Positions 26,577-42,184 of a stretch of 52,768 nucleotides of DNA are shown piece by piece (positions within the stretch are counted from its first letter, which is position 1; the number at the start of each line of letters is the position of its first letter). Both the position numbers and the translations under genes were made by a program. Below the pieces are notes generated by a model. That model saw nothing but the letters and a program-made list of their open reading frames with translations. It was not told where the DNA came from and made no database searches. Origin of the DNA: Caldisericia bacterium (GTDB lineage Bacteria > Caldisericota > Caldisericia > JAAYUI01); assembly GCA_017992555.1 (NCBI GenBank), contig JAGOOK010000006.1, forward strand, positions 1 to 52,768, given 5' to 3'.

Positions 26577-26649
26577 GTCGGAATTTGACAACCACACCAC
26601 CTAAGATTACAATTCACTATCGTTGGGAACCCACGGAAGGGAGGGGCAA

Positions 26650-28047
26650 TTGGGAGTGCCACAAACCCTTTCTGAGAAAGCATTTGACTTATGCAAGAAA
26701 CTGCAGTTTGATCTTCCTGCCCATCAAAAAAAATGGATAAGATGTTTTGATGATCCATGGAGCAGGAGGGTCCAGCTTGCGCCACGTTGTCATGGTAAAT
26801 CTACTATATGGACGGTGATATTTTCACAAGCCTTCCTCTTGTTAAATCTTGGGGCGAGAATACTGGTTGTTTCAAAGACCGAGCAGCTTGCATCAAGGCT
26901 TTTGAGGCAGATTGAATCGGCCTGCATCAGGCTCTGGCAGACAGGGTATGCACCAAAACTGTCCAGTGCAACAGCAACCGAAATGAGGCTGGAGGGTTGT
27001 GACTCAAAGGAACCAAATGTTTCCTGTTCGGGCATCCTTGGGTCGCTCACCGGTGGCCACTATGACCTGATCATCTGCGATGACGTGCTTGATGACCGCA
27101 ATACACAGACGCCGCAGGCAAGGGAGGAAGTCGAAGAGTGGTTTCATGGGTCATTGCTCCAGCTTTGTTTGCCAGAGACGAGGCTTCTTGTTGTCGGGAC
27201 AAGAAAGCACCCGGAGGATCTCTATGGCAAATTGGGGAAAAACCCAGCCTGGGAGTTTGTTTCAGAGAAAGCAATCATCAAGTGGCCATCAAATTTCACG
27301 GAAGCGTTGGAAAAGGGGATGCCAATATCCGAATTTTTCAGTTTTGGCGACAAGGGCCAGCTGCTTGGCGTGAAAAAGGAGGGCAAATGGCAAGTGCTAT
27401 GGCCCAAAATGTGGGGAGTAGACAGGCTTCTTCTAGACAGGTTGATGACAGGCCAAGCAATGTTTGACAGGGAAAAGCAGAATGATGTGAGTTTCTATCT
27501 GGGCAGGACTTTCAGGAGGGAATGGCTTGTGTTTTACGACTTGCTCCCCGAAAGGTCATCGTTGTCGGTTTATACGGCCTGCGATCTGGCCATATCCGAG
27601 AGAGAGGGTTCGGACTGGTTTGCGATGGTCACGGTTGGCGTTGATTCTGCTGGCGCCATATATCTTCTCGATTGCATCAGGGGACATTTTGGTTTTTCAA
27701 GACAGGCGGAAGCCGTGAGGGACTCTTGTGAACTCCACAAACCACTTCTTTTAGGAATAGAGGATGTTGCATACCAGAGGGCGCTCATAGAGCACCTTTC
27801 AGGCAATCTGGCAATTCCTGTCAAGTCAATCACCCCGCTTGCGCCAAAGCAGTCGAGGATAAGGGCGCTCCAGCCGCTGTTTGAATCAGGGAAGGTCCGC
27901 GTTGCGCCCTGCCACGAACTTTTTGTCAGGGAGCTGCTGGAGTTTCCGGGAGGAGAGCATGACGACATGATAGATGCTTTTGAAATGGCAGTTTCACTTG
28001 CAAGGCAGGGAACATCGCCGAGGGTCGACATTCTGGAGGTTTTATGA
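26650..28047 (+). CDS. Phage terminase large subunit
   Basis: The packaging motor ATPase and nuclease, about 465 residues from the TTG at 26650, which follows GGGAGGGG at good spacing; GTG at 26656 is an alternative, and a longer frame to 26623 lacks a site. The Walker A is APRCHGKST near residue 43, and the Walker B with its catalytic acid LIICDDVLDD near 141. The RNase-H-like nuclease has its first acid in ACDLAIS near 308, then LGIEDVAYQRAL, and the C-terminal GGEHDDMIDAF near 437. All key residues are present, so it should work. A small terminase is not found upstream. It overlaps the portal gene by 4 bases (ATGA). Confidence 0.95.
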   Translation: MGVPQTLSEKAFDLCKKLQFDLPAHQKKWIRCFDDPWSRRVQLAPRCHGKSTIWTVIFSQAFLLLNLGARILVVSKTEQLASRLLRQIESACIRLWQTGYAPKLSSATATEMRLEGCDSKEPNVSCSGILGSLTGGHYDLIICDDVLDDRNTQTPQAREEVEEWFHGSLLQLCLPETRLLVVGTRKHPEDLYGKLGKNPAWEFVSEKAIIKWPSNFTEALEKGMPISEFFSFGDKGQLLGVKKEGKWQVLWPKMWGVDRLLLDRLMTGQAMFDREKQNDVSFYLGRTFRREWLVFYDLLPERSSLSVYTACDLAISEREGSDWFAMVTVGVDSAGAIYLLDCIRGHFGFSRQAEAVRDSCELHKPLLLGIEDVAYQRALIEHLSGNLAIPVKSITPLAPKQSRIRALQPLFESGKVRVAPCHELFVRELLEFPGGEHDDMIDAFEMAVSLARQGTSPRVDILEVL

Positions 28048-29234
28048 AGCAGGCAAAGCTTGATTTTCTTTCGTGTGAGACAAGACAGGTCACGGAAAAA
28101 CCACTGGGCGCATCCGGGGTAGTGGAACCACCCCCGTACCTGGATTTTGAGAAGCTGCTCGAGCTTTACCAGAGCAATGAGATCTACTACAGGGCAGTGC
28201 AGGTAAAAGCCCAGTTCACAGTTGGACAGGGCTGGAGGCTTGTGGATGAAGGTGGTGGAGAAGACGCCAGAAAGAGGTTGTTCCAGTTTCTTGAGGAGTG
28301 TAATCCGGGCCAGACTTTTGACGAACTGCTGTTCCAGCTGATGGTTGACCTGGAATGCCTTGGGAATGGATACCTTGAGGCCACGAGAGACTCATTCGGA
28401 AAAGTTGGGAGGCTGTACCATGTTTCTGCCAGGAACATAAAACTGCTCAGGGACGGCGGTTTTGTACAAACGATAGGCACCCAGAAGAGGAAATTTGCCA
28501 GCTTTGGCGGCGGTGAGATTTTTGAGGGTGATGCCAGCAATCCGTCTGAGATCGTGCATTTCAGGAAATACAATCCTTCCTCGCAGTTCTATGGCCTTCC
28601 TGATTCGGTAGCCGCGATAGGCTCCACAATGGGCGATATCCTGGCCAGAGACTACAACATCCAGTTCTTTGAGAACAATGCCACACCAAGGTTTTGTCTT
28701 ATTATATCTGGCGGCTCGCTCTCTCCGAAGGACAAGGAGGAGCTCCAGAACTACATGTCAAACCTCAAGGGCAATCCGCACAAGACAATGGTCTTGCAGT
28801 TCCCTCAGGGTGTCACCGGTGAAATAAAGCCGATCCAGACAACACCGCAGGAGGCCTCTTTTGCCGACTACAGGAAGATGAACCGCGACCTGATGGTTGT
28901 TGCCCATGGTGTTCCACCGCACCTGCTTGGCATAATCGAGAGCGGCAATCTTGGCAGTGGCACCGGCCAGTCGCAGCTGCAAAACTTCAAAAATCTTGTC
29001 ATTGCCCCGAGGCAAAGGTTCCTGGAAGAAAGAATCAACAGAACAATCATCAGGGAAGGATTGGGGATTTCTGGGTGGAGGTTCCGCTTCAATGAAATGG
29101 ACGCCGAAGACGAACTTTGCAGGGCGCAGACAGACAAAATACTCATCGATTCAGGGATGATTTCAGCCGATGAAGCCAGGGTCAGGATGGGCCTCCCGGC
29201 CAGGGAGGTTGAAGGGGCCGGCAAAAACCAGTAA
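28044..29234 (+). CDS. Phage portal protein
   Basis: The 396-residue head-tail vertex protein through which DNA enters and leaves. It follows the PBSX/HK97-type portal pattern: an N-terminal segment YQSNEIYYRAVQVKAQFTVGQGW, then VDLECLGNGYLEATRD, FRKYNPSSQFYGLPDSVAA, the stem/wing ARDYNIQFFENNATPRF, and the crown region FADYRKMNRDLMVVAHGVPPHLLGI, followed by LIAPRQ-type helices (LVIAPRQRFLEERIN). Its start overlaps the terminase stop (ATGA), giving translational coupling. It is of normal length for the smaller portal families and appears intact. Confidence 0.94.
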   Translation: MKQAKLDFLSCETRQVTEKPLGASGVVEPPPYLDFEKLLELYQSNEIYYRAVQVKAQFTVGQGWRLVDEGGGEDARKRLFQFLEECNPGQTFDELLFQLMVDLECLGNGYLEATRDSFGKVGRLYHVSARNIKLLRDGGFVQTIGTQKRKFASFGGGEIFEGDASNPSEIVHFRKYNPSSQFYGLPDSVAAIGSTMGDILARDYNIQFFENNATPRFCLIISGGSLSPKDKEELQNYMSNLKGNPHKTMVLQFPQGVTGEIKPIQTTPQEASFADYRKMNRDLMVVAHGVPPHLLGIIESGNLGSGTGQSQLQNFKNLVIAPRQRFLEERINRTIIREGLGISGWRFRFNEMDAEDELCRAQTDKILIDSGMISADEARVRMGLPAREVEGAGKNQ

Positions 29235-29237
29235 TAT

Positions 29238-29528
29238 GTGCTCATGTCACTGAGATTCTCAAAAACTGACAGAAAGCTCTATTTCGACTCAAAGCTGGAT
29301 GCCATCTGGGCAGTGCCGGTGGGTCTCCTGCTTTGTGCCGGGTGGTTTTATGGCCTTGGCTATGTCGTTTCATGGCTCTGGAACATAACCATATACAGGT
29401 TTTTTGTGCCGGCACCACCACTGGATGTCTACACGGCGTGGGGAGCAATGATTGTGGTGTGGCTTATATTCAATGCGCCTTTTGCACCACTCGGACTGGC
29501 CAGGTTCTTCAAAAAGAAGTCAGACTGA
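29238..29528 (+). CDS. Small two-helix membrane protein in particle cluster
   Basis: A product of 94-96 residues, from GTG 29238 or ATG 29244, neither with a clear Shine-Dalgarno site. It has two hydrophobic helices (AIWAVPVGLLLCAGWFYGLG and WGAMIVVWLIFNAPF) and a basic tail RFFKKKSD. Two helices plus a charged C-terminus are compatible with a holin, which the cluster otherwise seems to lack, but its place between portal and protease genes is unusual for one. No family was recognised. A hairpin with a T run follows the gene. Confidence 0.65.
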   Translation: MLMSLRFSKTDRKLYFDSKLDAIWAVPVGLLLCAGWFYGLGYVVSWLWNITIYRFFVPAPPLDVYTAWGAMIVVWLIFNAPFAPLGLARFFKKKSD

Positions 29529-29556
29529 CGCTACTTGGCATAGACAAAAAACACTG

Positions 29557-29582
29557 GGCCCTCTTTTGCTGGAGGGCCTTTT
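29557..29582 (+). terminator. Intra-operon terminator or attenuator
   Basis: GGCCCTC (29557-29563) pairs with GAGGGCC (29572-29578) across an 8-base loop and is followed by TTTTC. It sits between the small membrane protein and the protease gene, inside the particle operon, so partial termination could adjust head-gene expression. Confidence 0.55.
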
Positions 29583-29597
29583 CATTTGGAGGGGACA

Positions 29598-30026
29598 ATG
29601 GCAGGTAAAAGCGGGGATGCTTTGGGGATCGTATGGGGCTGGGCCTCCACAGAAGCACTGGATTCACAGGGGGACATCATAAGCACAGGGGCTGTAAAGG
29701 AGGCCCTTGGCGCCTATTCAAGGTGGAGAAATGTCAGGGAGATGCACGAGCCGAGGGCAGTTGGTGTTGCATCGCATCTCTCGCTCACACCAAAAGGCCT
29801 CCTGGTTGGTGCCGACATCTACGACAAGAAGTGCTGGGACAAGATAAAGAGGGGAATCTACAAGGGGTTTTCTGTTGGGGGTGTGGTCACATCGAAAAGA
29901 CCAAAGAACTTTGAAGGCAAGACTATTGACGTCATCACCGGGATGACAATTGCCGAGATTTCTGTGGTGGATCAGCCGGCAAACCCGGAAGCCGGGTTCA
30001 TTCTTGTTTGCGAAAGAAAGGAGTAA
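29598..30026 (+). CDS. Prohead maturation protease (XkdF/S78-like)
   Basis: The 142-residue serine protease that cleaves scaffold and capsid N-termini during head maturation. The start is the ATG behind GGAGGGG. The sequence WGWASTEALDSQGDIIS is characteristic of the XkdF-like S78 group. The catalytic pair is probably H50 (EMHEPRAVG) and S92 (YKGFSVGG), and IAEISVVDQPANPEAGF is the conserved C-terminal strand. It precedes a small coiled-coil gene and the capsid gene, the standard order. In RcGTA the protease occupies the same position between portal and capsid. Confidence 0.9.
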   Translation: MAGKSGDALGIVWGWASTEALDSQGDIISTGAVKEALGAYSRWRNVREMHEPRAVGVASHLSLTPKGLLVGADIYDKKCWDKIKRGIYKGFSVGGVVTSKRPKNFEGKTIDVITGMTIAEISVVDQPANPEAGFILVCERKE

Positions 30027-30029
30027 GTG

Positions 30030-30305
30030 ATGCTGGGAAGGTTTTTTAAAAAAGGGGAGGAAAAAAAAGACGATTTTGAATGTATGCCGGAGCAGCTTCT
30101 TGAGAGCCTGTCCGCAAGGATAAAGGAGATGGAGGAGCGGATGGATTCGATGTCCGAGGCCTTGTCATCACTCGAGGAGAAATTTGATGACGCCATGCTC
30201 AGGCTTGGGGCAATGGAAAAGGGGCTCCTCAAGACAAAGGCAATTGTGGCCGACGACAAAGCTGAGCCAAAAATGTGGGCGTCCGTTGTGGCGCTCCTTT
30301 CATGA
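30030..30305 (+). CDS. Coiled-coil protein, candidate scaffold
   Basis: A 91-residue charged protein starting with MLGRFFKKGEEKKDD and containing one long predicted coiled coil (LLESLSARIKEMEERMDSMSEALSSLEEKFDDAMLRL region, about residues 25-65). It starts three bases after the protease stop, with AAAGGAG in front (GTG 30027 is an alternative start). Position between protease and capsid and the coiled coil fit a small scaffold protein, although sequence alone cannot prove it. The stop lies 11 bases before the capsid start. Confidence 0.65.
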   Translation: MLGRFFKKGEEKKDDFECMPEQLLESLSARIKEMEERMDSMSEALSSLEEKFDDAMLRLGAMEKGLLKTKAIVADDKAEPKMWASVVALLS

Positions 30306-30316
30306 TGGGAGGAAAC

Positions 30317-31495
30317 ATGATAGGAAATGAAAAACTGCTTTCAAAAGCTGCCATAACTTCAGGGTCTTTTGCCCAGAGGATCGGCCTTGCAACAGAGGAT
30401 GCAAACCGTTTTATTGACTACATTGTTGATGCCTCGTTCCTCAAGAACAACGCAAGGGTCGAGAGGATGAGGGGCAGCACAAAAAAGCTTGTGAGGCTGG
30501 GGATTGGTGAGGAAGTCCTCAGGCCTGGAAACTATGGCTCTTCAGGAGATGGCTTCTCCGATGTCTCAACATCGGCTGTAACGCTCACCTCGAAGGCCAT
30601 GAAAGCCGTTGTGCCGATTGCAGATGATGCACTCATGGACAACATTGAAGGCGAGTCATTTGCCGACCACCTCATGAGGGTAGTGGCAAACCAGATAGGC
30701 AACCAGCTTGAATATGCCTACCTCATGGGGCAAGACACTGGGGCACTTCCAAAAAACCATATCTGGGAGATGGTTGAAGGATGGTACCCGAGGGCAGTTT
30801 CCGAAGGCCATCTCATAGATGCCAAGTCTACTTTTGCTGACAGGGACATCAGCGCGGAAAAACTCTCGAGGACACTGAAAACCCTGTCGAGCAAATACAG
30901 GGGGAAGAGGGAAAACCTCAGGTTTATAATGAGTGATGACCTGTACCAGGACTATGTTGATGCGCTTGGAAGCAGGACGACTCCCCTTGGAGATGACGCA
31001 ATAACCGGAGATTCGCTCATGAGCTTCGGCAAAGTGCCAATCTCGCCATGCGCTCTTGTTCCTACAAATCTTCCGGTGCCTGTTTCTGGTGGAGGAAATA
31101 CCACCATGTCATCGGCCTCTGTTGCTGGAGATACAACAATAGAAGTCACATCCGCAACAAATATCCAGCAGGGCGACACGCTGGCCATTGGCGAAGGGGC
31201 GACCCGCGAAATCAGGAAAGTTGCTTCCATTGTGGCAACCGATGTCACACTGGATAGTGCTCTGGTGTTCCAGCACCAGCTGGGCGAGAAGGTCGTCGAG
31301 TGCACACTGGACGGGACTTTTGTCATGCTTTGCGACACAAGCAATCTCGTACTGGGCATCCAGCAGGACGTGACCATCGAGACAGAGCGCAGGGCAACAG
31401 AGGGTGTTACTTACTTTGTCGTGACGATAAGGTGTGATTGCGCCCTTGAAAATCCTGATGCAGTAGTGGTTTTGAGCAACCTGAAGGTGAAATAG
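30317..31495 (+). CDS. Major capsid protein (HK97-fold) with inserted beta-domain
   Basis: A 392-residue capsid protein. The ATG at 30317 follows GGGAGG; a frame to 30275 overlaps the previous gene and has no site. The HK97-like pattern includes an N-terminal helical region, GNYGSSGDGFSDVST, TSKAMKAVVPIADDALMDN (E-loop/P-domain helix), and RGKRENLRFIMSDDLYQDY followed by TGDSLMSFGKVPISPCALVP. After that a ~70-residue module is inserted (about residues 259-330: AGDTTIEVTSATNI, GDTLAIGEG, ALVFQHQLGEKVVE), then the capsid fold resumes (GTFVMLCDTSNLVLGIQQDV). Related modules are found in the tail-tube and a tail-tip protein. The module probably projects from the capsid surface. Confidence 0.88.
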   Translation: MIGNEKLLSKAAITSGSFAQRIGLATEDANRFIDYIVDASFLKNNARVERMRGSTKKLVRLGIGEEVLRPGNYGSSGDGFSDVSTSAVTLTSKAMKAVVPIADDALMDNIEGESFADHLMRVVANQIGNQLEYAYLMGQDTGALPKNHIWEMVEGWYPRAVSEGHLIDAKSTFADRDISAEKLSRTLKTLSSKYRGKRENLRFIMSDDLYQDYVDALGSRTTPLGDDAITGDSLMSFGKVPISPCALVPTNLPVPVSGGGNTTMSSASVAGDTTIEVTSATNIQQGDTLAIGEGATREIRKVASIVATDVTLDSALVFQHQLGEKVVECTLDGTFVMLCDTSNLVLGIQQDVTIETERRATEGVTYFVVTIRCDCALENPDAVVVLSNLKVK

Positions 31496-31870
31496 ATGTA
31501 CGCTGGCATTCAGGATGTAAGGAAGGCACTCAGGGGAATTGGCGAGGAGGTCATTCCAGACACCTCCGAGAACAGGTTTTCCATCGAGCAGGCAATCTTG
31601 AAGGCCAGCAGGATGGTTGACCTTGTTGTTTCGTGCAACTTCCAGGTGCCGGAACAAGTGCCTCTGCCAATCAGGGAAATAACGGTTGATCTGGCGTGCT
31701 CGTTTTGCCTTGAGTACGTTTTTCAGGAGCAGGGCGATTCATGGTGCCAGCAGGCACAGAACCTTTACAAGAGGTCGCTGGACATGCTCCGTGAAATAAG
31801 GGACGGCAGGGTCTCGGCAGATCTCCTGCCACGGTCCGGCATCCCATCAGGACTCTGGGTGTCTTCGTGA
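31496..31870 (+). CDS. Head-tail connector/adaptor protein
   Basis: A 124-residue helical protein that begins immediately after the capsid stop. The N-terminal YAGIQDVRKALRGIG, the central helix FSIEQAILKASRMVDLVVSC, and IREITVDLACSFCLEYVF with the following LYKRSLDMLREIRDG fit the gp6/DUF1320-type head-completion adaptors that bind the portal. The position directly behind the capsid gene supports this. Its stop overlaps the GTG of a 45-codon ORF. Confidence 0.75.
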   Translation: MYAGIQDVRKALRGIGEEVIPDTSENRFSIEQAILKASRMVDLVVSCNFQVPEQVPLPIREITVDLACSFCLEYVFQEQGDSWCQQAQNLYKRSLDMLREIRDGRVSADLLPRSGIPSGLWVSS

Positions 31871-32004
31871 TCCAGATAAAGCATGATCTGGGAAAAGCGG
31901 TTTTTGCAGACAAGGTCAGTGACATTGCAAAAAACATCAGGAAAAAGCTTGAATCTTTGGCCAGCCACGGGAGTGGCAAAAAGACATCGGGAGGGCGAAA
32001 ATGA
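31867..32004 (+). CDS. 45-aa basic protein, coupled small ORF
   Basis: A short gene between adaptor and tail-terminator candidate. It starts with GTG overlapping the adaptor stop (GTGA) and ends overlapping the next start (ATGA), so it is translationally coupled at both ends. The product is lysine-rich (DIAKNIRKKLESL, then GSGKKTSGGRK). Without it, a 130-base hole would break an otherwise gapless operon. It could be a small neck protein; no family was recognised. Confidence 0.6.
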   Translation: MIQIKHDLGKAVFADKVSDIAKNIRKKLESLASHGSGKKTSGGRK

Positions 32005-32408
32005 CGCCATACAGGGAGGTTCTGTTGCAGGCAAAAGACGCCCTGGAAACAAAATTTCCGGGTGTGGAGATAGTTCTGGGGCCAAGACAGCTGGCAAAAC
32101 AGTTTCCATGCCTTGCCCTGTCGATTGCGCCTTCGGAGGGAAGGGCAACAACAATAGGCGGTGGCAGGGAATCTATCATTGGTCTCACAATCAGTGTGCT
32201 CTCAAGGGACTATCAGGGCAGGGAGCAGGGATACCTTGCGCTTGCAGACATCATATCGAGGATCGAGGAAGAGGCAACCGAGCCGACATTCCTGCCGTCA
32301 TATCTTGTCAGGCACGTCGAAACAAATTTTTCACTGGAGCCATTTTACCATGAAAACCAGTTTGTACTTCAGGGTGCTGTTGGCCTCCAGGTAGAGGTTG
32401 AAAACTAG
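32001..32408 (+). CDS. Tail terminator/neck protein candidate
   Basis: A 135-residue protein whose ATG overlaps the preceding small ORF and follows GGGAGGGC. It starts TPYREVLLQAKDALETKFPGVEIVLGPRQLAKQFPCLALSIAP and contains SIIGLTISVLSRDYQGREQGYLALADII. The alternation of a long helix and beta strands and the place just before the tail-tube gene match tail terminator proteins (lambda gpU-like), which cap the finished tail tube. The assignment rests mainly on gene order and size. Confidence 0.65.
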   Translation: MTPYREVLLQAKDALETKFPGVEIVLGPRQLAKQFPCLALSIAPSEGRATTIGGGRESIIGLTISVLSRDYQGREQGYLALADIISRIEEEATEPTFLPSYLVRHVETNFSLEPFYHENQFVLQGAVGLQVEVEN

Positions 32409-32417
32409 GGAGGAAAA

Positions 32418-33662
32418 ATGCCAAAAGGCGAATCCAGCTATTTCGGTTTTGGGAGGGAGACGCAGTTTGCAGAGCCTGTGGCACCGGACAATTTCTGGAA
32501 GGTGTTATCCTGCAATGTCAGCTGGGGCAGGGACATGTCAAAAAGGTTCCTGATAGGCAACTCGGCCCAGCAATCGGAGATGGTCCAGAAGGGCTGGACA
32601 CAAAAAGGAGATATAACGCTTGATGCAAATCCTGTTGCCACTGGCCAAATATTGTATTGGCTCTTTGGCCAGGACAGCGTGGCGGCTGTGCCGGAGGCAA
32701 AATCTGGAGGGGCATCAACAACGCTGTCCTCACAGTCACCGGCTGGCGCCACAACGATAGAGGTGGCTTCGGCAGACAGCCTGGCAGTAAACGACTGGGT
32801 GGCCATCGGCACCGGTCAGGTTTGCGAGTTCGCGAAAATTGTCTCTATAAACGGAACAATACTTGGCATCGAGGCAAAAGGGACTTCTGGCGGGCTGGTT
32901 TTTGCCCATGATCTCGGGTCGACGACCGTGGAGAACGTTCCGGATATTGCCTACAAACACACTTTCAGCCAGTCAGGGACGGTGCCCAGCCAGACATGGG
33001 AGCTTGATCTTGGTGCCCCCGACGGGCACTCTGCCGCCAGGTTCTCCGGTATGATGACAGAAAGTTGCTCAATCTCGATGCTGCCTGCAGAACCAGTCTC
33101 TATTTCTGCCTCATTTGTTGGCTCAAAGATGTCTGCCCACAACACGAGGGCGACACCGGTTTATCAGGAATACGAGTCCTTCAAGCCTGCCGGCTCATCA
33201 ATCACGATTGAGGGAACACCCAAAACGTCTCTGGTCAAAAGCCTGAAACTCTCAGTTTCAAACGGACTGGAGGCATCAGAGCGGACGCTTTCCAGTGGTG
33301 CATTTATCTCAAAGGGCAGTGCAGGGACAATATCGGCAGAGCTTGATGCCGAGGCTCTCTTTGAGGACGATGCTGAACTGCAGAGGTTTCTGGGCGGAGA
33401 CGGGGCAGACTACGCGGCAAAGAATGAGACAAAACCTTTTGCCTGTGTGGTTGAGATGCAGGGTTCGCTGATTGGCCCATCATCTGCAATTCCAGGCTCG
33501 CTCAAGGTAACATTGCTAAAGTGCTACATGACCGCGTGCTCCGTGCCGGTCCAGGTCGGCAGAAAAACGGCCCAGAGCTGGAAGGCCAGCGCGACATTCA
33601 GCCAGAGCGATGGTTTTGCCGTAAAAGCAGAGCTTGTTTGTGGAAAGTACAGCTTCCTGTGA
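32418..33662 (+). CDS. Major tail tube protein with inserted beta-domain
   Basis: A 414-residue tail-tube protein. The N-terminus SSYFGFGRETQFAEPVAPDNF and the later GSSITIEGTPKTSLVKSLKLSVSNGLE and LFEDDAELQRFLGG are characteristic of long-tailed phage tube proteins of the class with N-terminal GxGxE. A module at about residues 97-174 (AGATTIEVASADSL, WVAIGTG, LVFAHDLGSTTVE) resembles the one in the capsid protein. Start ATG behind GGGAGG. Its stop overlaps the GTG of the G chaperone gene. The presence of a tube gene and absence of a sheath gene indicate a non-contractile tail. Confidence 0.85.
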   Translation: MPKGESSYFGFGRETQFAEPVAPDNFWKVLSCNVSWGRDMSKRFLIGNSAQQSEMVQKGWTQKGDITLDANPVATGQILYWLFGQDSVAAVPEAKSGGASTTLSSQSPAGATTIEVASADSLAVNDWVAIGTGQVCEFAKIVSINGTILGIEAKGTSGGLVFAHDLGSTTVENVPDIAYKHTFSQSGTVPSQTWELDLGAPDGHSAARFSGMMTESCSISMLPAEPVSISASFVGSKMSAHNTRATPVYQEYESFKPAGSSITIEGTPKTSLVKSLKLSVSNGLEASERTLSSGAFISKGSAGTISAELDAEALFEDDAELQRFLGGDGADYAAKNETKPFACVVEMQGSLIGPSSAIPGSLKVTLLKCYMTACSVPVQVGRKTAQSWKASATFSQSDGFAVKAELVCGKYSFL

Positions 33663-33985
33663 GCTACCTCAGGGAAGAGTCGTTTGGCTTTGCCAATTTT
33701 GATGCAAGGGCAGGAAAGGATGACAGGGCCAAGATCCATGGAGTCTCAGTCGGTGAATTCTTGGAGGTCCAGAGATTGCTTGCCGCGACCGAAGGAAGCA
33801 GGTCAGAAAATGTTTTCAGGGCAAACCTCAAGCTCGTTGCCTTTTCGTGCCATGAACTGCAAATAGATGGCAGGACATTGAAGCCAACCGAGGACGATAT
33901 AGAGGCACTTGATGCACTCTATTATCAGGTCTTGCTTTCAAGGGTGCTGTCTTTCCACGATTTTTCGGAGCAGGCAAAAAACTGA
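33659..33985 (+). CDS. Tail assembly chaperone G
   Basis: A 108-residue protein that starts with GTG overlapping the tube-protein stop (GTGA). It begins SYLREESFGFANFDARAGKDDR, and the C-terminal half is helical (EDDIEALDALYYQVLLSRVLSF). In siphophages the gene between tail tube and tape measure encodes the G chaperone, which coats the tape measure during tail assembly. Its last codons, GCA-AAA-AAC-TGA, contain a perfect -1 slippery heptamer, and a second frame continues for 83 codons. This reproduces the lambda G/GT arrangement. Confidence 0.82.
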   Translation: MSYLREESFGFANFDARAGKDDRAKIHGVSVGEFLEVQRLLAATEGSRSENVFRANLKLVAFSCHELQIDGRTLKPTEDDIEALDALYYQVLLSRVLSFHDFSEQAKN

Positions 33986-34025
33986 CCGAGGAGGCGCTCT
34001 TTGGGATTGATACCGGGGTGCCTCC
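33976..34025 (+). promoter_or_regulatory. Programmed -1 ribosomal frameshift site (G to GT)
   Basis: The slippery heptamer A-AAA-AAC (33976-33982) sits in frame directly before the G stop codon TGA. A Shine-Dalgarno-like CGGAG lies 5 bases upstream (33966-33970). Seven bases after the heptamer a stem GGAGGC (33990-33995) can pair with GCCTCC (34020-34025). These are the three elements of bacterial and phage -1 frameshift signals, placed exactly where tailed phages use them. Confidence 0.78.
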
Positions 34026-34233
34026 CTATATAGGACAAGTTTTGCCTGTCTTGTCGAAAACGCTTGGGCTTGGCTTGTGGCCATCATCCGGGGGGATGCT
34101 TGAGCAGGACTGGATTTTTGTGGAGCTGGCCTGCCTGGTTGGGGAAACCAGGAACAAGAAAGCCAGGCTTTCTGAAAGAAGCACCAGATTGGAACAGGAG
34201 CAAGGGGGGACATGCAGGAAAAGGCAACCATAA
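33982..34233 (+). CDS. T domain of GT tail assembly chaperone (by -1 frameshift)
   Basis: A frame open from 33911 to 34233 with no convincing start of its own; the first in-frame GTG (34018) has no ribosome binding site. Slipping at 33976-33982 would join 83 residues (LTEEALFGIDTGVPPYIG onward) to the 108-residue G protein, giving a GT fusion of 191 residues. The T part runs 22 bases into the tape-measure gene. In lambda the T domain recruits the tail-tube protein to the tape-measure/chaperone complex, and the same role is inferred here. Confidence 0.75.
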   Translation: MTEEALFGIDTGVPPYIGQVLPVLSKTLGLGLWPSSGGMLEQDWIFVELACLVGETRNKKARLSERSTRLEQEQGGTCRKRQP

Positions 34234-36491
34234 CAATTGAGGCAAAAGACCTCGCAACCAGCGAGATCGAAAAGGCAAAAAAATCCCTGGACCTGCTTGC
34301 CTCTTCGGCCGAGGAGGCAAGCGAAAAGGCCCGGGAGGCTCAAAAGGTCTGGGAGGAAGCAGGGGAATCACTGGACAAGCTTTCCGAGACATTCGGGGGG
34401 CTTGATGAAAACCTGAAAAGGCAGGGCGACAGGCTCCTTGGGACAGCTCAGGAGATCGGGTCAAATTTTGGAAGAAACCTTTGCAATTCTGTGGCCCTGT
34501 CCACTTCGCCCATTCCGGCAATGATGGCAGGGCTTGGGGCAAACTCTGCAAAGATGTTTGCGCAGGGGCTCCTTTCCGGGCTCTCCGAGGTCGAGAGCGC
34601 CGCAAGCTCCATAGCTTCGGTAATCTCCGATTTTCTCGAACTGCATTCCCCCGCCAGGCTTGGGCCGCTTTCAAAAGAGGACCCGACCAACTGGACAAAG
34701 CGCCTTGCAAAGATGCTGGAACAGGGCCTTTTGAGCGGTGAAGACTTCCTTCGCGGGTCATCAGAGAGGGTGGCCCAGGCGCTTTTTGACGGGTTTTCTT
34801 CCCTCCCTTCAAGGCTTGCCGGCATTGCAGAAGGGATCACCAGCTCATTTTCCGTCCTGAGATCTGCGCCGCAGGGCGAAAAATTTGGCGGTCTCTTTAC
34901 AGATGGACTGAACACATCCATCGATGATATTAAAGAAAACCTTTCCAGGGCGGCGTCATCATACAGAAATGCCAGCGAATTTGATGCCATGTTCTCGGTG
35001 CTGACAACGTCTCTGGGTGGAGGAGGCAAGCAGGGTGCTTTCCCTGCATGGGCGACTAAATACCTTTCAAGATCGGGGCAGGTCACCGATGCAGAGATTT
35101 CCGAGCTGGATTCAAAATGGCGCGATTACGGCTGGTTTGGTGAGGGAACAGCCCTTCCCGAAACAAGGGAAGAATGGGAGAAGGCAAGGCAAAAAGAGGG
35201 CCTTCAAGGACCTCCGCTTGATCCATTTGGCGCTGGTGAGCTTGGGGCAAAAAACATGCTTGACTGGCTCTGGGAGGGCAAAAGTGGCCAAAGAAACTGG
35301 GACCTTTCGCTTAAAAAGCCGTGGTTTGCGATGCTCAACTACATCAAGTATCTGTCAGGCTTCAAGAAGAGCGATTCATACCAAGTTCCTGATGACCTGA
35401 AGGATACCGGGTTTGGCAAACTGCTCGAAGGTTCTTCTGCCGATGTTTCCGGCCTTCCATCAAACATAGTTGGCAATGATCTTTTCAAGGCCCTGGCGCC
35501 AAAGATGACGCTTGCTGATCTGGAGAAGCTTTACTGGGGTTCACCAATCGGATTGGGGCTGACGCAGGGTCCAGTGGGGCAGGCAGACAAGCTACTTCCA
35601 ATAAGGGAATTTCTTGCAAAATACAATGGAAAAATCAACAATTCGGCGCTAGACAGGGCCCAAAAGGAGCTTGGGATAGGGTTTGACTACAACCTTGGTT
35701 TTTTGAAGGAGATCCTGTTTGACCAGAATGGCTCGCCAAACACCACTATTGACCCTGTCTCCGAAGGGTCATCGAGATTGAAATCTGCCTATGAGATAGG
35801 CCAGAGGCTGTATGGCATGCTCTCCAATGCCGAAGGAACAAGCGCATGGCAGTATGATGTTTCTGGGAAGAACGCCTATTTGAAAGAACTGTTTGATTCA
35901 CTTGGCATAAAAAAAGATGGAAAAACCTGGTCACAGATGGCACCAAGGGAGGGCGAAGGACTCTGGGGTGGGGCCAATCTTGAGCAGGTGAATCTTGTCA
36001 ATTCCCTTGTCAGTTCAGGGTCATCATTCGAGGATGCCGTTTCAGAGGCCGCAAACGAACTGTTCAGGCAGGCTGTGTCGGCCAGGCAGGAGGAGCTGGG
36101 CAAGGGCAAGGCCAATCCTGCGCTTTATGGCGGATGGGCAGGCACTGACTACTGGAAACTGGTTGATCCGGCATGGATTGCGACCCATGGCTCCGAGGCT
36201 TCGACCCTGACAACAAAATACCTTGACGATGTCGTATTGTCAAAGCTCTTTTACCAGACGGGAAACATCGACCTGACAAGTACCTTGGGCGAGGGAAAAC
36301 CATGGCAACCAGACAGTGGCTACGGGGTGGGCATGCAAACTGGCGCCGGGAAGATTGAAATCAACCAGACATTCAATCTCGATCTCGGTGGCTACGAAGG
36401 AGACATATCCTCGCTTGCCAGGGAGATTGCCCAGCAAACGGTCATTGAAGCCCAGAAAGCCCTTCTGGAGCTCGTGAATTTCAGGGGGTAG
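34212..36491 (+). CDS. Tail tape measure protein
   Basis: The longest gene of the cluster, 759 residues, directly behind the G/GT genes. Start ATG with GGGGG upstream. It opens with a coiled coil (SEIEKAKKSLDLLASSAEEASEKAREAQ) and contains the motif HSPARLGPLS near residue 147 that occurs in many tape measures. It ends with NQTFNLDLGGYEGDISSLAREIAQQTVIEAQKAL, also typical. At about 0.15 nm per residue it would specify a tail of roughly 110 nm (inference). The middle part is not strongly helical and has no recognisable lytic domain. Confidence 0.85.
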   Translation: MQEKATITIEAKDLATSEIEKAKKSLDLLASSAEEASEKAREAQKVWEEAGESLDKLSETFGGLDENLKRQGDRLLGTAQEIGSNFGRNLCNSVALSTSPIPAMMAGLGANSAKMFAQGLLSGLSEVESAASSIASVISDFLELHSPARLGPLSKEDPTNWTKRLAKMLEQGLLSGEDFLRGSSERVAQALFDGFSSLPSRLAGIAEGITSSFSVLRSAPQGEKFGGLFTDGLNTSIDDIKENLSRAASSYRNASEFDAMFSVLTTSLGGGGKQGAFPAWATKYLSRSGQVTDAEISELDSKWRDYGWFGEGTALPETREEWEKARQKEGLQGPPLDPFGAGELGAKNMLDWLWEGKSGQRNWDLSLKKPWFAMLNYIKYLSGFKKSDSYQVPDDLKDTGFGKLLEGSSADVSGLPSNIVGNDLFKALAPKMTLADLEKLYWGSPIGLGLTQGPVGQADKLLPIREFLAKYNGKINNSALDRAQKELGIGFDYNLGFLKEILFDQNGSPNTTIDPVSEGSSRLKSAYEIGQRLYGMLSNAEGTSAWQYDVSGKNAYLKELFDSLGIKKDGKTWSQMAPREGEGLWGGANLEQVNLVNSLVSSGSSFEDAVSEAANELFRQAVSARQEELGKGKANPALYGGWAGTDYWKLVDPAWIATHGSEASTLTTKYLDDVVLSKLFYQTGNIDLTSTLGEGKPWQPDSGYGVGMQTGAGKIEINQTFNLDLGGYEGDISSLAREIAQQTVIEAQKALLELVNFRG

Positions 36492-36494
36492 ACG

Positions 36495-38162
36495 ATGTTC
36501 TGCGGCATATCAAGGGTTGAAACGGGCAATCAGGACATAACAGACCTTGTTGCCTCGATAAAAATAACCGAGGCTTATGGCGAACCGTCGTCCTGCACGA
36601 TCGAGACTGTTCTGCTTCGGACGGATCAGGTCCCACAATATCAGCCTTTTTGCCAGATAGGTGTTTTTGGTGAGAGCGGAGAGGTGGTTTTTGGCGGGAG
36701 GTGCGACGGGGTGCCCAAAAAAGAGGAAACACCTCTTGGCACAAGGCTGGTTTTTGAGGCAAGGGACTGGTCTGCCGAGTGCAAACATCGGATGGTCAAC
36801 GAGCACTATATGGAGTGGATGGCATCTGACATCTACAAGTCTCTTGTGGCCAAATATCTTCCCGGACATACGACTGATCTGGTCAGGGACTGTGATGACA
36901 CTGTTTCGGTGAAGTTCAATGGACAGAGTGTTGAGCAGTGCTTCAAAACACTCTGCGATTTTACGGGATGGGTGTTTCGCGTTTCACCGCAGAAAATCCA
37001 CTATTTTGGCCCAGCATTTCTGGAGCACCTCCAGGTCACGATAAGAGATCCGCACTGCGACATGTCAAAAGGGCAGACAACGCCTTTCGAGCCTGATTAT
37101 TCCACGCTTGCAAACAGGGTTTGGGTTGAGGGTGGGGAAGGCGATGCGGAGAATTTTACAAAGCAGTATATTCTTTCCTCCGAGTTGCCAGACACGCCTG
37201 ACCCGAACATCTGCACGCTTTATCCATTTGCTTTTCCGATATGGTACAAGTGCTCCAGCCTTTCAGTCTATGCAGTGTTTGATTCTGGCGACGGTTTGCT
37301 TGAGAAAGGCAGCCTTGTCCTGCTTGATTGCGACACGGACGGTCTTTCTGTGAAGAATTCTGTTGTAAAGACCAACGAGCCGCTGGACACAAAGCCAGCC
37401 CTGTCGTCCCTCATTTTGCATGATGAGGCTGACACAAACCTTCCTGGGACATTCTCCTCGGACCACAAGATTACAGTCAGTTTCGATGCCCTGTATTGTC
37501 CAGATGCGACAGCAGGGGCCCAGGGTGGATGGGTATATCTGAGCAGGAGCGTCAAGGAGGCCAAGGGCCTCCTCGGCTTCATGGTCAAATACAGAAGAAA
37601 GCTCAAAATAAGCTATGTTTCCGAAGCAGACGAGGAGTCGGTTGGAAAGTATGGCGTCCAGATAGACCTGCCAAAGGTCACCAAGCCTGCAATAAAAGAC
37701 TGGGCGATACTTTACAAATATGCCGACTACCTTCTTTCATCCCACAAAGACCCGCCAAGGAAGGGCAAGGCCACCGTGTACCGGTACAAGGGCGGGCAAA
37801 TGGTCTATCCGGTGCCTATAAGAGCAGGTGTTGTTGCCGATTTTGAGTTTGATAGGTTTGGGGTATGTGAAGGAGCCAGGATTTCAAGGGTCACACACGA
37901 AATCACGCCAATGCAATGGAGGATGGTTTGCGAGTCCAGCCTCGACCCCAATCTCTACGCCAGCCTGCTTGCCGATGTCATCAAGAGGCTTGCCCAGCTT
38001 GAGCAGGAGGCGTCTGAAGGAGACATCATCAATGCGGCATCGGGGCTTTCTTCCGGGGCTGGGGTGATGGATTTTGCGCCGTCAATAAAGAGTTTTCTGC
38101 CCAAAAACGACTATGGCTTTGGTGAGTCGCTTTTTGGGGCGTGCGAATGGGAGGGACAATGA
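36495..38162 (+). CDS. Tail hub / tip protein
   Basis: A 555-residue protein right after the tape measure, start ATG behind AGGGGGT. It begins FCGISRVETGNQDITDLVASIKI. The segments GEPSSCTIET, FGESGEVVFGGRCDGVPKK and LVFEARDWSAECKHRMVNE resemble the gp27/phage-late-control-D type hub domains that close the tail tube, and CFKTLCDFTGWVFRVSPQKIHYFG fits the second hub barrel. Many cysteines are present. It overlaps the next gene by 4 bases (ATGA). The hub assignment rests on gene order and these general similarities. Confidence 0.72.
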   Translation: MFCGISRVETGNQDITDLVASIKITEAYGEPSSCTIETVLLRTDQVPQYQPFCQIGVFGESGEVVFGGRCDGVPKKEETPLGTRLVFEARDWSAECKHRMVNEHYMEWMASDIYKSLVAKYLPGHTTDLVRDCDDTVSVKFNGQSVEQCFKTLCDFTGWVFRVSPQKIHYFGPAFLEHLQVTIRDPHCDMSKGQTTPFEPDYSTLANRVWVEGGEGDAENFTKQYILSSELPDTPDPNICTLYPFAFPIWYKCSSLSVYAVFDSGDGLLEKGSLVLLDCDTDGLSVKNSVVKTNEPLDTKPALSSLILHDEADTNLPGTFSSDHKITVSFDALYCPDATAGAQGGWVYLSRSVKEAKGLLGFMVKYRRKLKISYVSEADEESVGKYGVQIDLPKVTKPAIKDWAILYKYADYLLSSHKDPPRKGKATVYRYKGGQMVYPVPIRAGVVADFEFDRFGVCEGARISRVTHEITPMQWRMVCESSLDPNLYASLLADVIKRLAQLEQEASEGDIINAASGLSSGAGVMDFAPSIKSFLPKNDYGFGESLFGACEWEGQ

Positions 38163-38650
38163 GAGAATGGCTGGAAAACATCAGGCAGGCCATTGGAGAG
38201 GTCTCCGGCGAGGCAGGCGCATATTTTGCGCTGAAGGGGAGGCTCCACGGAAGAGTGACAATTGGCGATCAGACAAGGGAAAATACTGTAACAGATGCCG
38301 GAATAAGGGCCATCGCGAGGGCACTTTGCTCTCCAGTCAGGCAATCGGGCAGGACGCTCTCACCGGTTTTCAGGATCGAGTGGTTTGCGGCATCCACCTC
38401 TGCAACACCGCCAACACCAAAAGACACAACGCTTGGCGGGAGCGTTTCATTGAGGAGCGTGGAGCAGGTGGACGCATTGGGAAAGAAACTTGTGGTGACC
38501 AACTTTATTGGCCAGCCGGAGTTCAATTTCACATGGCGCAAGGCCGGGCTGCTCCTTACTGATAGCACAGTGTTTGCGCTTTGCGGTGTTTATGAGCCAA
38601 AGACCGACCAGGTGAGCAAAACCGTTGTCTGGGAAATAGAGTTTTCATGA
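38159..38650 (+). CDS. Tail-tip/fibre-associated protein
   Basis: A 163-residue protein whose ATG overlaps the hub stop and follows GGGAGGG. It has a short N-terminal helix, then RENTVTDAGIRAIARALCSP, a stretch with PPTPKDTTLGGSVSLRS and VTNFIGQPEFNFTWRKAGLLL. This order (T-x-AG..IA, P..DT.LG, then ..AGL) is shared by many small phage tail-tip and fibre N-terminal proteins that attach receptor-binding parts. The function is inferred from that pattern and location. Confidence 0.6.
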   Translation: MREWLENIRQAIGEVSGEAGAYFALKGRLHGRVTIGDQTRENTVTDAGIRAIARALCSPVRQSGRTLSPVFRIEWFAASTSATPPTPKDTTLGGSVSLRSVEQVDALGKKLVVTNFIGQPEFNFTWRKAGLLLTDSTVFALCGVYEPKTDQVSKTVVWEIEFS

Positions 38651-38660
38651 GGGAGGGAAA

Positions 38661-39944
38661 ATGTTGCCTTCAAGACCAAAGATACAGCCGGTAAAGGGTG
38701 GAGCAAACAGGGACCCGGTGAGTGCAGGGTGGGGGAATGGCATTTTATCGGAACTCCACCTGCCGCAGGAGAGGGTCTATTTTGATTACCAGGAGGTTGG
38801 ACCCATTGAGGTGGATGGCAGAAAAGTGACTTTTGAGAGCGTTTTTGCAAAATCATATTCCGATTTTGGCCCAAACTCCTTTCATGCATCGGGGTCGGTT
38901 ATGGAACAGGGGCAGGCCTCGGAATTGCTCCTCTCGTGTGACTCCTTCTACTCCTACCTGGTAAACGAAGAGCAGCTCTCGACTGAGGACTGGACGACCC
39001 TCAAGTCGGTGCATGGTGACTGGCTCCGGGAGCCTGTGACTGTTGTGACAGTCAATGGCACCATCATCGGTGAAGCAGAGTATTCGATTGATTATGGCAA
39101 TGGCACCATTGTTTTTCCGCAAAAGATCAGGGGGAATGCACATCTGGTTTCACAGGCGCAGGCCGGCGCAATATCAATTGTTGTCGATGATGTGGTTGGG
39201 TTTTCTCCTGGAGACATGGCTGTTATTAGAGGTGAGACGACCTCACAGGATGAAGTGGTCATTGTCCAGTCTGTTATTTTGCCGAACACGATAACACTTT
39301 CCGGGGCACTGTCGTTTTCTCATGCCACAGGCAAACAGATTGAGGAAATGGCGCCGGTTGTTAGGGCGACATACCGCTACATCGAGCAGCACCTCTCGCT
39401 GTATGAGTTCAATCCTCCAAACCCGGCAGGGCCGCAGGCCATGATGCCTGCAATGTCTCATGAATTCTGCGAAACAGGCGACACCGGTCTTGGAATCCTG
39501 CGTCTCAAGAACCCGATCTTTGACTCCTGGACCGGAAGCATGCCGGACGGATGGGCAACTGGTGGCCTCGGTGCCTTGCAGACAGCGAAGGGCCAGGGGA
39601 TTCTGGGTGATTTTTCCCTGAGATTGACAGCGACCCCAAACACTGGTTGGAGCTATTGCCACCAGACACATCCAGGCACGCATTCCGGAAACATCACATT
39701 TTCTTGCTGGGTGCGCACCGACCAGACGGCAAAGATAGAAATAGTGCTATCTGGAGCACCAGCAGTTTCAACATGCCTTGACTGCAGGGCAGGGCAGGTT
39801 GCTGAGACATTCAAAGACAAATGGGTCAGGCTCTCGGTTTCCGTCCAGGGGCAGGGCCCCTTTGAAGTCAGGCTGTATGCCCAGTTGTCAGAGAATGATG
39901 GTGGAACGGCGAGCTTCGATGGTTGTTGCCTGCTTGTCAAATAG
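38661..39944 (+). CDS. Tail fibre-like protein with shared module and lectin-like C-terminus
   Basis: A 427-residue protein, start ATG behind GGGAGGG. Residues about 158-230 (AGAISIVVDDVVGF, GDMAVIRG, ALSFSHATGKQI) are a third, more divergent copy of the beta-module found in the capsid and tube proteins. The C-terminal ~145 residues (NPIFDSWTGSMPDGWAT, then SLRLTATPN, TFSCWVRTD, WVRLSVSVQ and GTASFDGCCLL) look like a CBM4/9-type carbohydrate-binding jelly roll. The protein therefore probably binds cell-surface glycans at the tail tip. Several paired cysteines are in the jelly roll. Confidence 0.72.
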   Translation: MLPSRPKIQPVKGGANRDPVSAGWGNGILSELHLPQERVYFDYQEVGPIEVDGRKVTFESVFAKSYSDFGPNSFHASGSVMEQGQASELLLSCDSFYSYLVNEEQLSTEDWTTLKSVHGDWLREPVTVVTVNGTIIGEAEYSIDYGNGTIVFPQKIRGNAHLVSQAQAGAISIVVDDVVGFSPGDMAVIRGETTSQDEVVIVQSVILPNTITLSGALSFSHATGKQIEEMAPVVRATYRYIEQHLSLYEFNPPNPAGPQAMMPAMSHEFCETGDTGLGILRLKNPIFDSWTGSMPDGWATGGLGALQTAKGQGILGDFSLRLTATPNTGWSYCHQTHPGTHSGNITFSCWVRTDQTAKIEIVLSGAPAVSTCLDCRAGQVAETFKDKWVRLSVSVQGQGPFEVRLYAQLSENDGGTASFDGCCLLVK

Positions 39945-39953
39945 GGAGGGAAA

Positions 39954-40034
39954 ATGAACCTGCTTTATGTCACAGTATTCCTGTCAGCCATTTTCTGCCT
40001 GTCAGGGATTTTCATCATGCCAGGGGGCGTCTGA
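39954..40034 (+). CDS. 26-aa single-helix membrane microprotein
   Basis: The ATG at 39954 follows an excellent Shine-Dalgarno GGGAGGG. The frame encodes 26 residues, almost all of it one hydrophobic helix (NLLYVTVFLSAIFCLSGIF), and ends in TGATG, overlapping the next start by one base. The strong site and the coupling argue that it is translated. It could be a lysis-related or membrane-docking peptide; no homolog was recognised. Confidence 0.55.
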   Translation: MNLLYVTVFLSAIFCLSGIFIMPGGV

Positions 40035-40759
40035 TGGCACTGCCGCCTGCTATATGCCAGATAATTTCCGAGGCGCAGAGATTGTACAATAATGCCTTTT
40101 CCCAGATGGACGAGACGGATGATGACAGCCTTGCCCTCGACCTCGAAAAGAAGTTTGACGATTTTGCGCTCTCGCTTGACGCGCTCCTTGTCGACCTCTC
40201 CCAGACACTTCAGGCTACATCAAGAGAAATAAGCGATCTGGTGAACCCGAACCAGTTGCCGATGTACCTGCACCTTGATGCGCACATTCCGGCAAGATCG
40301 GCTGGCTATCCGGAGCAGGCGTTGCCTGATTCTGGCCCCATTGCCAGTTTCTACAAGGGAAAGGGCAAAATACACTGCCTGGGGCTTGCAGGGTCGTATG
40401 TCCCTCAGTCAGTGAAACTCATTATAAGACAGTACGATGAGGAGATGAACCAGACGAGAGAAAAAACCATCTGTCAGGTGCCGGTTTGCCACAATGGCTC
40501 GCCACCGCCTGCATCCTTGCATGTTATTCCTTCGCCATTCTGGGCCTCATATTGCTGGATGAACACCCCGGAATTCCCGCACATGGTCTCGCACGCCTCG
40601 TGCGCACTGCCATATTTTGAACTGTTTGGCTACGCCAGCCCGACCACATACACTCATTTTCTGGTCGAGGCAACACCGGCAAACGTCTTCTGGTCGGCAG
40701 GGATCGCATTCGAGTCCCAGTACCAGCACGACAGCGTATACTTTGGGGAGGGCCTGTGA
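40034..40759 (+). CDS. Particle protein of unknown function
   Basis: A 241-residue protein starting at an ATG that overlaps the stop of the 26-aa ORF. The first ~80 residues are helical and acidic (LYNNAFSQMDETDDDSLALDLEKKFDDFAL), and the remainder is beta-rich with several Cys, Trp and Tyr (PSPFWASYCWMNTPEFPHMVSHASCALPYFELFG). No family was recognised. It overlaps the next gene by 4 bases (GTGA), placing it firmly in the tail-tip/lysis end of the operon; a structural or adhesion role is likely but unproven. Confidence 0.6.
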   Translation: MALPPAICQIISEAQRLYNNAFSQMDETDDDSLALDLEKKFDDFALSLDALLVDLSQTLQATSREISDLVNPNQLPMYLHLDAHIPARSAGYPEQALPDSGPIASFYKGKGKIHCLGLAGSYVPQSVKLIIRQYDEEMNQTREKTICQVPVCHNGSPPPASLHVIPSPFWASYCWMNTPEFPHMVSHASCALPYFELFGYASPTTYTHFLVEATPANVFWSAGIAFESQYQHDSVYFGEGL

Positions 40760-41466
40760 GGGGATACGAAATAGTGGCATGGGCGCAGTGCAGAAGGGCA
40801 AATGGTGCCATCAGCAACCTGGTTGGCTACACAAAAGATAAGGTTGGTGAAACACTCCTCGAAGCCGGCGCAAAGGCAGTCTTGTGGTCATACAGCCTGA
40901 AGGAGCTTTTTGGTTCTGCAAAATCTGACATCACTTCGTCGATGCTGCTGCTCTCGGGCTCTGGCGACCAGAACGGCGAATACATACCACTGCCAAACCT
41001 TGAGGGCTACCTCACCCAGAGCATGCAGTGGCAAAAAATTATCACGCTGACAGGTTTTGCAAATGTCTATGGCATCAGCATCTCGGCGGCACCTGACTGG
41101 ATCATTCCGCCGTCTCAGCCATATTCTAGCGAGGTTCTGCAAGGATCGGTGGCGATTCTCACGGCAACCCAAAACCCTGGCACCGGGCTTGTGAACCTGA
41201 CAGACATCAAAAAACCGAGGTTTGATTTTCCAAAAGTTGTCAGCCAGGGCTGGAGCGACAAGCCGGTCCCGCCGATGGCGGTGCCCTGGGACATCAACCC
41301 GGACACGTATTGCACGCCACCCCAGCTTGAGGCCGCAAACTACAACATCAACATCCCGATAGCCAAGCACAGGGTACCCTCCTCAGGGCTGGCAGTCTGG
41401 GCGTACTGGGCAACAGCATCCAATCCAAGGCTGAGGGTGACGCTGGTGACAGCGCCGGAGAGGTGA
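40756..41466 (+). CDS. Particle protein of unknown function
   Basis: A 236-residue protein with a GTG start overlapping the previous stop (GTGA), behind GGGGAGGG. It begins RGYEIVAWAQCRRANGAI and is rich in Pro, Trp and Tyr in its second half (GWSDKPVPPMAVPWDINPDTYCTPPQL). No transmembrane helix or known catalytic motif was seen. It is translationally coupled to the lysin gene (GTGA), so it is probably needed together with it, for example as a tail-tip component. Confidence 0.6.
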   Translation: MRGYEIVAWAQCRRANGAISNLVGYTKDKVGETLLEAGAKAVLWSYSLKELFGSAKSDITSSMLLLSGSGDQNGEYIPLPNLEGYLTQSMQWQKIITLTGFANVYGISISAAPDWIIPPSQPYSSEVLQGSVAILTATQNPGTGLVNLTDIKKPRFDFPKVVSQGWSDKPVPPMAVPWDINPDTYCTPPQLEAANYNINIPIAKHRVPSSGLAVWAYWATASNPRLRVTLVTAPER

Positions 41467-42107
41467 GAGCAGTGGAATACATCCTTGATGACCCGAAATA
41501 TCTTGTGCTCCACCATTTTGTAAATGGAAAAATTGGTGCGACAAAAGAAAAGGCCCTTGTTGTGGCAACAAAAAAGCTTAATCCCAGGGAGTACCATTAT
41601 GTGGTTTACTCTGACGGCTCGTGGGAGGGCTGGCAAAAGGAGGGGCTGGTTGCGGCGCACTGCGGTGCCGACAATCAGTCCCAGAGCAGGTGCGGGGCAC
41701 ACAATTTCAATTCGATCGGTGTCTGCTGCATGGGCAATTTTGAAAAAGGCCCGATGGAAGAAAAACAGCTCTCAGGCCTCCTTGCCCTTGTCAGGGATAT
41801 TGTCACACGGCATGGCATTGTACCAGAGAACATTTTGCCGCACAGCGCGATTGCACCAACGGCTTGTCCGGGAAAATATTTCCCACTTTTGGAGGCAAGA
41901 CAGGCGGCGGACGTTCCGCTTGTGAGGGTGGCGATAAACTCTGACCAGGCGCTTGTCATGGGCAGGCCGGACAAAATGCCGTTGAAGCTGGTGCTGGACA
42001 GGGGGCATGCAGTTGCCCCCCTGCGCTGGCTTTGCGAGGCGCTTGGATTCAGGATTGTTTTTCTAAGGGATGGCGGGGTTGTGGAGGTGAGGAAGAAGTT
42101 TTCGTAG
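41463..42107 (+). CDS. N-acetylmuramoyl-L-alanine amidase (lysin) with stalk domain
   Basis: The lysin of the cluster, 214 residues with a GTG start overlapping the previous gene. The N-terminal ~150 residues are an amidase_2 domain. Zinc ligands are H17 (or H18) in LVLHHF, H127 in LPHSAIAP and C135 in TACPG, almost the spacing of T7 lysozyme (H17, H122, C130). The lysine of T7 near the last cysteine is a threonine here. The C-terminal ~60 residues (MPLKLVLDRGHAVAPLRWLCEALGFRIVF) are one copper-amine-oxidase-like stalk domain, the same module found in large host surface proteins, so it may direct the enzyme to the host wall. There is no signal peptide, so a holin or other exit is needed. Confidence 0.88.
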   Translation: MRAVEYILDDPKYLVLHHFVNGKIGATKEKALVVATKKLNPREYHYVVYSDGSWEGWQKEGLVAAHCGADNQSQSRCGAHNFNSIGVCCMGNFEKGPMEEKQLSGLLALVRDIVTRHGIVPENILPHSAIAPTACPGKYFPLLEARQAADVPLVRVAINSDQALVMGRPDKMPLKLVLDRGHAVAPLRWLCEALGFRIVFLRDGGVVEVRKKFS

Positions 42108-42173: not shown

Positions 42174-42184
42174 GTTTCTACCGT

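Follow-up and report, generated by a model that had tools for sequence, protein, structure and literature searches.

The window, a stretch of 52,768 bp analysed at its full length, is an entire contig (C16) of a Caldisericales MAG that measures 1.5 Mb and is 70% complete. The host belongs to the phylum Caldisericota and to an uncultured family, and an origin in sludge digesters is suggested by the isolate names of two near relatives. Here G000 denotes the MAG of the window, G001, G002 and G003 are genomes of the same genus, and G004 represents a second genus of the same family.

Positions 26650-42107 hold an intact head-tail cluster of 15.5 kb, which is a single run of same-strand genes. The order is TerL, portal, a small membrane protein, S78 protease, coiled coil, capsid, Gp36-type adaptor and tail terminator, followed by tube, G/GT chaperones, tape measure, five tip/hub genes and amidase. 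An earlier note on this DNA, which read the cluster as a gene transfer agent (GTA) or domesticated prophage, had described an intact one-strand head-tail cluster in canonical order; its coordinates were right, and matches of TerL, portal, protease, capsid, adaptor, tube and amidase confirm the description. The features of the locus and its left flank are as follows.

19890-23291, minus strand: host left-flank gene, 1133 aa, syntenic in 5/5 genomes
23356-23904, plus strand: host left-flank gene, DUF4388, syntenic in 5/5 genomes
23908-26442, minus strand: host left-flank gene, 844 aa, NHL / Cu_amine_oxidN1, adjoining terL in 5/5 genomes
26585-26613, plus strand: sigma70-like promoter TTGACA-17-TACAAT upstream of terL (11/12 matches)
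26650-28047, plus strand: large terminase TerL (phrog_38, E 1e-80)
28044-29234, plus strand: HK97-type portal protein (PF04860, 9e-40)
29238-29528, plus strand: small protein with two hydrophobic segments, possibly holin-like, confined to the window genus
29586-30026, plus strand: prohead protease, Peptidase_S78 (Pfam/PHROG matches)
30027-30305, plus strand: coiled-coil, scaffold-like protein, sharing one ORF with the protease in G004
30317-31495, plus strand: major capsid protein (MCP), HK97 fold with an inserted beta domain at residues 252-335 (PF05065, 1e-6)
31496-31870, plus strand: head-tail adaptor, Mu Gp36 / phrog_195 (profile match)
31867-32004, plus strand: 45-aa ORF, open in 4/4 same-genus genomes, positioned where G004 and L047 have their Neck1/tail-completion gene
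32001-32408, plus strand: probable tail terminator, 98% identical within the genus (role by position)
32418-33662, plus strand: tail tube protein with the capsid's inserted beta domain (PF18906)
33659-33985, plus strand: tail assembly chaperone G (frameshift analysis)
33976-33982, plus strand: -1 frameshift heptamer A AAA AAC, directly 5' of the G stop codon
33983-34233, plus strand: T extension of the G-T fusion, accessed by -1 frameshift
34212-36491, plus strand: tape measure protein, 759 aa
36495-38162, plus strand: probable baseplate hub / distal tail protein, g13 (position and conservation only)
38147-38650, plus strand: tail tip/fibre-like protein, with phrog_5417 and, weakly, tail-fibre families matched by the homologue in L047
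38661-39944, plus strand: tail tip protein with the shared beta domain
40034-40759, plus strand: tail tip protein, fold unknown
40756-41466, plus strand: tail tip protein, conserved across both genera
41463-42107, plus strand: N-acetylmuramoyl-L-alanine amidase (lysin, Amidase_2) with a weak Cu_amine_oxidN1-like C-terminus
42135-42173, plus strand: intrinsic terminator after the amidase, 11-bp stem then T6, read directly from the sequence

Of the four same-genus genomes, three retain the promoter sequence before terL, and in G003 it has diverged. TerL retains intact Walker A/B motifs and nuclease aspartates. When the portal was compared with the PDB, the RcGTA portal was the best match (E 1.8e-8), with portal 8cez next and about equal. 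An AF2 model of the capsid (pLDDT 78) matches HK97-fold capsids; that of g13 had a mean pLDDT of 41, a confidence too low, and was not used. No Pfam or PHROG match was obtained for tip genes g13 and g15-g17, and their roles rest on position. All five genomes, from both genera, retain the frameshift site A_AAA_AAC.

Two candidate genes were rejected. The ORF at 31883-32353 is a spurious overlapping frame, the true gene being 32001-32408, and 'g11' is not a separate gene but the -1 frameshift extension of g10 at A AAA AAC.

A beta domain of ~80 aa is common to the capsid (residues 252-335), the tail tube (residues 91-176) and the tip protein at 38661-39944, and its copies in capsid and tube are about 38-45% identical. 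Inserted in these three proteins, it possibly forms a shared surface decoration.

The closing terminator that the earlier note had claimed is present at 42135-42173, with its 11-bp stem and T6. The strong link that it had drawn between the lysin and host domains did not survive, as the lysin C-terminus gives only a sub-threshold Cu_amine_oxidN1 match (15.9 bits vs a cut-off of 24.2) and weak matches to other host proteins. Large surface-type proteins ending in Cu_amine_oxidN1 domains are encoded at 19890-23291, 23908-26442 and 48367-51369, and this module is abundant across the class.

Inheritance and constraint

TerL and MCP searches found the cluster in one copy in each of the five family genomes (two genera) and in none of the 44 other genomes of the class. 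Because the same cluster is present in five genomes, it is not a chance pattern. TerL matches outside the family are all distant, at 40% identity or less, and mostly partial. In all five genomes the neighbours of terL are one set of three host genes, with order and orientation unchanged, bearing out the claim that host-type genes lie directly on the left. No empty site was found in close relatives, and outside the family the empty-site test was uninformative, the flank genes having no clear orthologues there.

Between the genera, identity is 33-50% for the flanks, 52% for TerL, 61% for the portal and 72% for the capsid. The family clade has 100/100 support in both the TerL tree and the MCP tree. 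The cluster is also present on an IMG/VR contig (L047/L115) that groups with the second genus. L047, a 15.7-kb relative classed as viral in IMG/VR, contains particle genes and almost nothing else, and is the only source of a g13 homologue in IMG/VR; no homologue of this hub gene was found in any phage record.

Within the genus, the TerL branching ((G000,G001),G002),G003 is weakly supported and matches genome distances over 100 kb elsewhere, which are 7.0, 8.1 and 14.4% from G000 in branching order. The proposed check of a TerL tree against the host was passed to this extent. The expectation of vertical inheritance at one site holds for two genera sharing the site, but recombination has occurred within the genus at other cluster genes, for example the capsid gene. 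Inheritance of the cluster is thus mostly, not purely, vertical.

Core genes are free of stops and frameshifts, and every genome compared has all frames open. The dN/dS is about 0.03-0.10 for nearly all core genes, the same as for neighbouring host genes, so the purifying selection proposed as a check is there. For TerL and portal it is 0.03-0.09, a constraint as strong as that on capsid and tail. Equal selection on TerL, portal, capsid and tail therefore points to a DNA-packaging particle. Ordinary phages are also under purifying selection, and this evidence is informative only in combination with fixed, vertical inheritance.

The cluster has a GC content of 52%, the host 45% on average, and by codon position 1/2/3 the values are 0.55/0.44/0.58 for the cluster and 0.51/0.39/0.47 for the host. 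In RcGTA, GC is elevated at codon positions 1 and 2, not 3 (PMC7360931), a pattern that the cluster does not meet. The GC test is not diagnostic, because position 3 rises too and because the V-ATPase and a large surface protein are equally GC-rich in G000. Carbon per residue is lower in the MCP (2.70) than in viral homologues (2.89, sd 0.06), and TerL is not lower than its viral homologues. Codon adaptation gave no signal in the cluster.

Absent phage functions and lysis genes

The earlier note's statement that integrase, repressor, replication gene and small terminase (TerS) are lacking agrees with the Pfam and PHROG profile searches, which recognised none of them in the cluster. No flanking direct repeats or att repeats were found around the window cluster, and the window has no tRNA or Rfam match. 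An integrase, a replication gene, an att site or an empty site in close relatives would have refuted the GTA reading; all were looked for, and none was found. Related viral contigs supplied 1931 ORFs as queries against nearly all of the remaining G000 assembly (1.445 Mb); these matched only housekeeping proteins and two methyltransferase-like proteins, and revealed no further phage structural genes. This absence is valid only for the 70%-complete assembly and the baits used. The sole tyrosine recombinase of G000 is Xer-like and lies among kinase, FHA, queA-like and rpoN-like housekeeping genes.

The lack of TerS is not disqualifying, because the Caulobacter GTA has no known TerS (PMC11841831), and as a sign of random packaging of host DNA it is suggestive only. 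The most awkward gap for the GTA reading is the loss of Neck1. This tail-completion gene of G004 and L047, whose L047 homologue is phrog_26, is absent in the window genus and in the rest of the window MAG. Head-completion replacement in GTAs is known from Sphingomonadales (PMC9765227).

The G004 cluster has no amidase. On another contig of G004, a cassette standing alone among host genes encodes a small TM protein, Amidase_2 and Holin_LLH. Neither this cassette nor any holin was found in G000, whose MAG at 70% completeness is also missing the tpiA and ybeY region. By inference, the unlinked G004 cassette may serve the particle; RcGTA genes are spread over five loci (PMC9662315).

Known systems and rival readings

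GTAs are defined by six features (Kogay et al. 2022, PMC9662315), three of which are met as far as sequence can tell. First, a virion-like particle made from caudoviricete-derived proteins is supported by gene homology only, particles being unseen. Second, endogenisation, often at several loci, is met by the same site in 5/5 genomes and by the unlinked lysis cassette of G004. Third, mostly vertical inheritance with host co-diversification is met by two genera, one site and a TerL tree matching host distances. Random packaging, incomplete self-packaging and delivery need experiments.

The cluster resembles RcGTA (Rhodogtaviriformidae) in head-tail cluster size and order, non-contractile tail, HK97-type portal, HK97-fold capsid, vertical inheritance, elevated GC and lysis genes unlinked in some members. 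It differs in having no TerS, in GC that is up at position 3 too and in its host phylum, Caldisericota. MCP profile, tube and hub searches of PDB sequences gave no match to RcGTA chains, and the head genes are nearest to other phage lineages (27-43% identity). Judged from these comparisons, the cluster would be a lineage separate from RcGTA; without a tree that includes RcGTA, it is not shown to be RcGTA-like. CcGTA of Caulobacter crescentus likewise has no TerS known (PMC11841831), but is of an RcGTA-like lineage, to which the Caldisericota sequences are not shown to belong. FpGTA of Faecalibacterium is also a near-ubiquitous phage-derived operon in one non-alphaproteobacterial group, but it is podovirus-like and its DNA packaging has been shown (PMC12946183), whereas the Caldisericota cluster is siphovirus-like with packaging unproven. 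Streptomyces phages such as LukeCage and Birchlyn have a homologous capsid (27%) and portal (33%), but are full phages of about 130 kb.

We consider it probable that a domesticated prophage of independent origin works here as a GTA and has its head-tail locus in the cluster, with packaging, release and transfer inferred. The operon would be expressed in some cells from a host-controlled promoter, and a siphovirus-like particle would assemble from its products. TerL, with no pac-recognising TerS encoded here, would fill heads with non-specific host DNA, and the producer would be lysed by the amidase and a holin. Tail adsorption and natural-competence proteins would then bring the DNA into relatives, where it would recombine. 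The non-specific packaging, the lysis, the delivery and any benefit to the host are inferred. ComEC, present in 5/5 family genomes, is compatible with DNA uptake, which is permissive and no proof of delivery. The earlier reading as a GTA or domesticated prophage has thus passed most sequence tests, and its random packaging and delivery are unproven.

The main rival, which is unlikely but cannot be excluded, is a domesticated particle like PBSX of Bacillus subtilis, packaging host DNA on lysis without delivering it and acting as a bacteriocin against relatives. PBSX, too, is a domesticated prophage particle that packages host DNA; it kills, and its tail is contractile. It is described as not injecting the host DNA that it packages (PMC12946183). 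Such a particle should leave the same genomic signs, namely vertical inheritance, selection and no replication genes. However, a contractile tail is not supported, as no tail sheath was recognised in the Caldisericota cluster by Pfam or PHROG match and the tail looks siphovirus-like. In addition, tip proteins vary little within the genus (g17 97-100%, g14 92-99%), where killing specificity would predict hypervariability, and no immunity gene was identified.

Less credible still is a virion locus domesticated to serve the host in some other way, for example through controlled lysis, release of matrix or formation of an extracellular structure, with DNA packaging incidental. TerS and Neck1 are missing in the window genus and function is untested, which leaves room for such a use. 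Yet the constraint on TerL and portal equals that on the capsid and the catalytic motifs are intact, which is hard to explain without DNA packaging.

A true temperate phage or satellite, integrating repeatedly at one site with its early genes lost or unrecognised, could account for the fixed site and for a 15.7-kb relative classed as viral, L047. We regard it as very unlikely. The marks of an active temperate prophage (integrase, repressor, replication module, att sites) were not found: the window cluster is not flanked by att repeats, and nothing at the site was recognised as an integrase, a repressor or a replication gene. Moreover, between genera, identity to relatives scales with host divergence, and L047 itself amounts to little beyond particle genes. 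A functionless, decaying remnant, to which the loss of Neck1, TerS and early genes might point, is refuted by core frames open in 4-5 species, dN/dS of about 0.06 and the conserved frameshift site.

Genetic definition has reached only a few GTA lineages, most of them from Alphaproteobacteria, Brachyspira and, recently, Faecalibacterium, and no report of a GTA in Caldisericota was found in the literature searched. If the GTA reading is true, conversion of a prophage into a host-owned DNA courier is wider than known, with an independent domestication in an uncultured, poorly studied phylum. It would also offer a fresh case for asking which GTA genes are indispensable, with no TerS and with lysis and neck genes replaceable, and a mechanism for the frequent inter-species recombination in the window genus.

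Exchange between species and neighbouring genes

Within the genus, most cluster genes depart from the host tree by G001-G003 exchange, and divergence between these two genomes is 5.9% in the cluster vs about 13% elsewhere. The exchange is general rather than cluster-specific, because similar patches occur on another contig. Mosaicism is genome-wide: on contig C10 of G000, divergence to G003 switches over tens of kb from about 8% to 25% and back, and exchange of G001 with G003 can be seen there at 36-72 kb. Exchange of genes between species is no specific mark of a GTA.

Over 40535-45447 (4.9 kb), the window and G002 differ by a single mismatch, whereas the surroundings differ by about 8-9%. 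No other near-identical tract above 700 bp is present in the roughly 126 kb that were compared. The left boundary of this segment falls within the cluster, and the segment takes in the cluster end and an OLD-type nuclease gene. The tract fits transfer of a fragment of a few kb, and equally any other recombination route; an assembly error in one MAG is not fully excludable. That a still active, independently domesticated Caldisericota GTA moves chromosome segments between species, and that this tract is the footprint of one particle load, is a speculation that we hold to be rather doubtful.

Defence-like genes of about 30% GC lie in two variable spots, at 16270-18540 (AAA_13) and 42241-44091 (OLD/AAA_15). 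Most relatives have other genes there, and the OLD gene is not conserved. In Caulobacter, GTA release is under the control of a defence-like system, LypABC (PMC13236601). At the left contig end, 14-1584 contains fragments of an Eco57I-type restriction-modification methylase.
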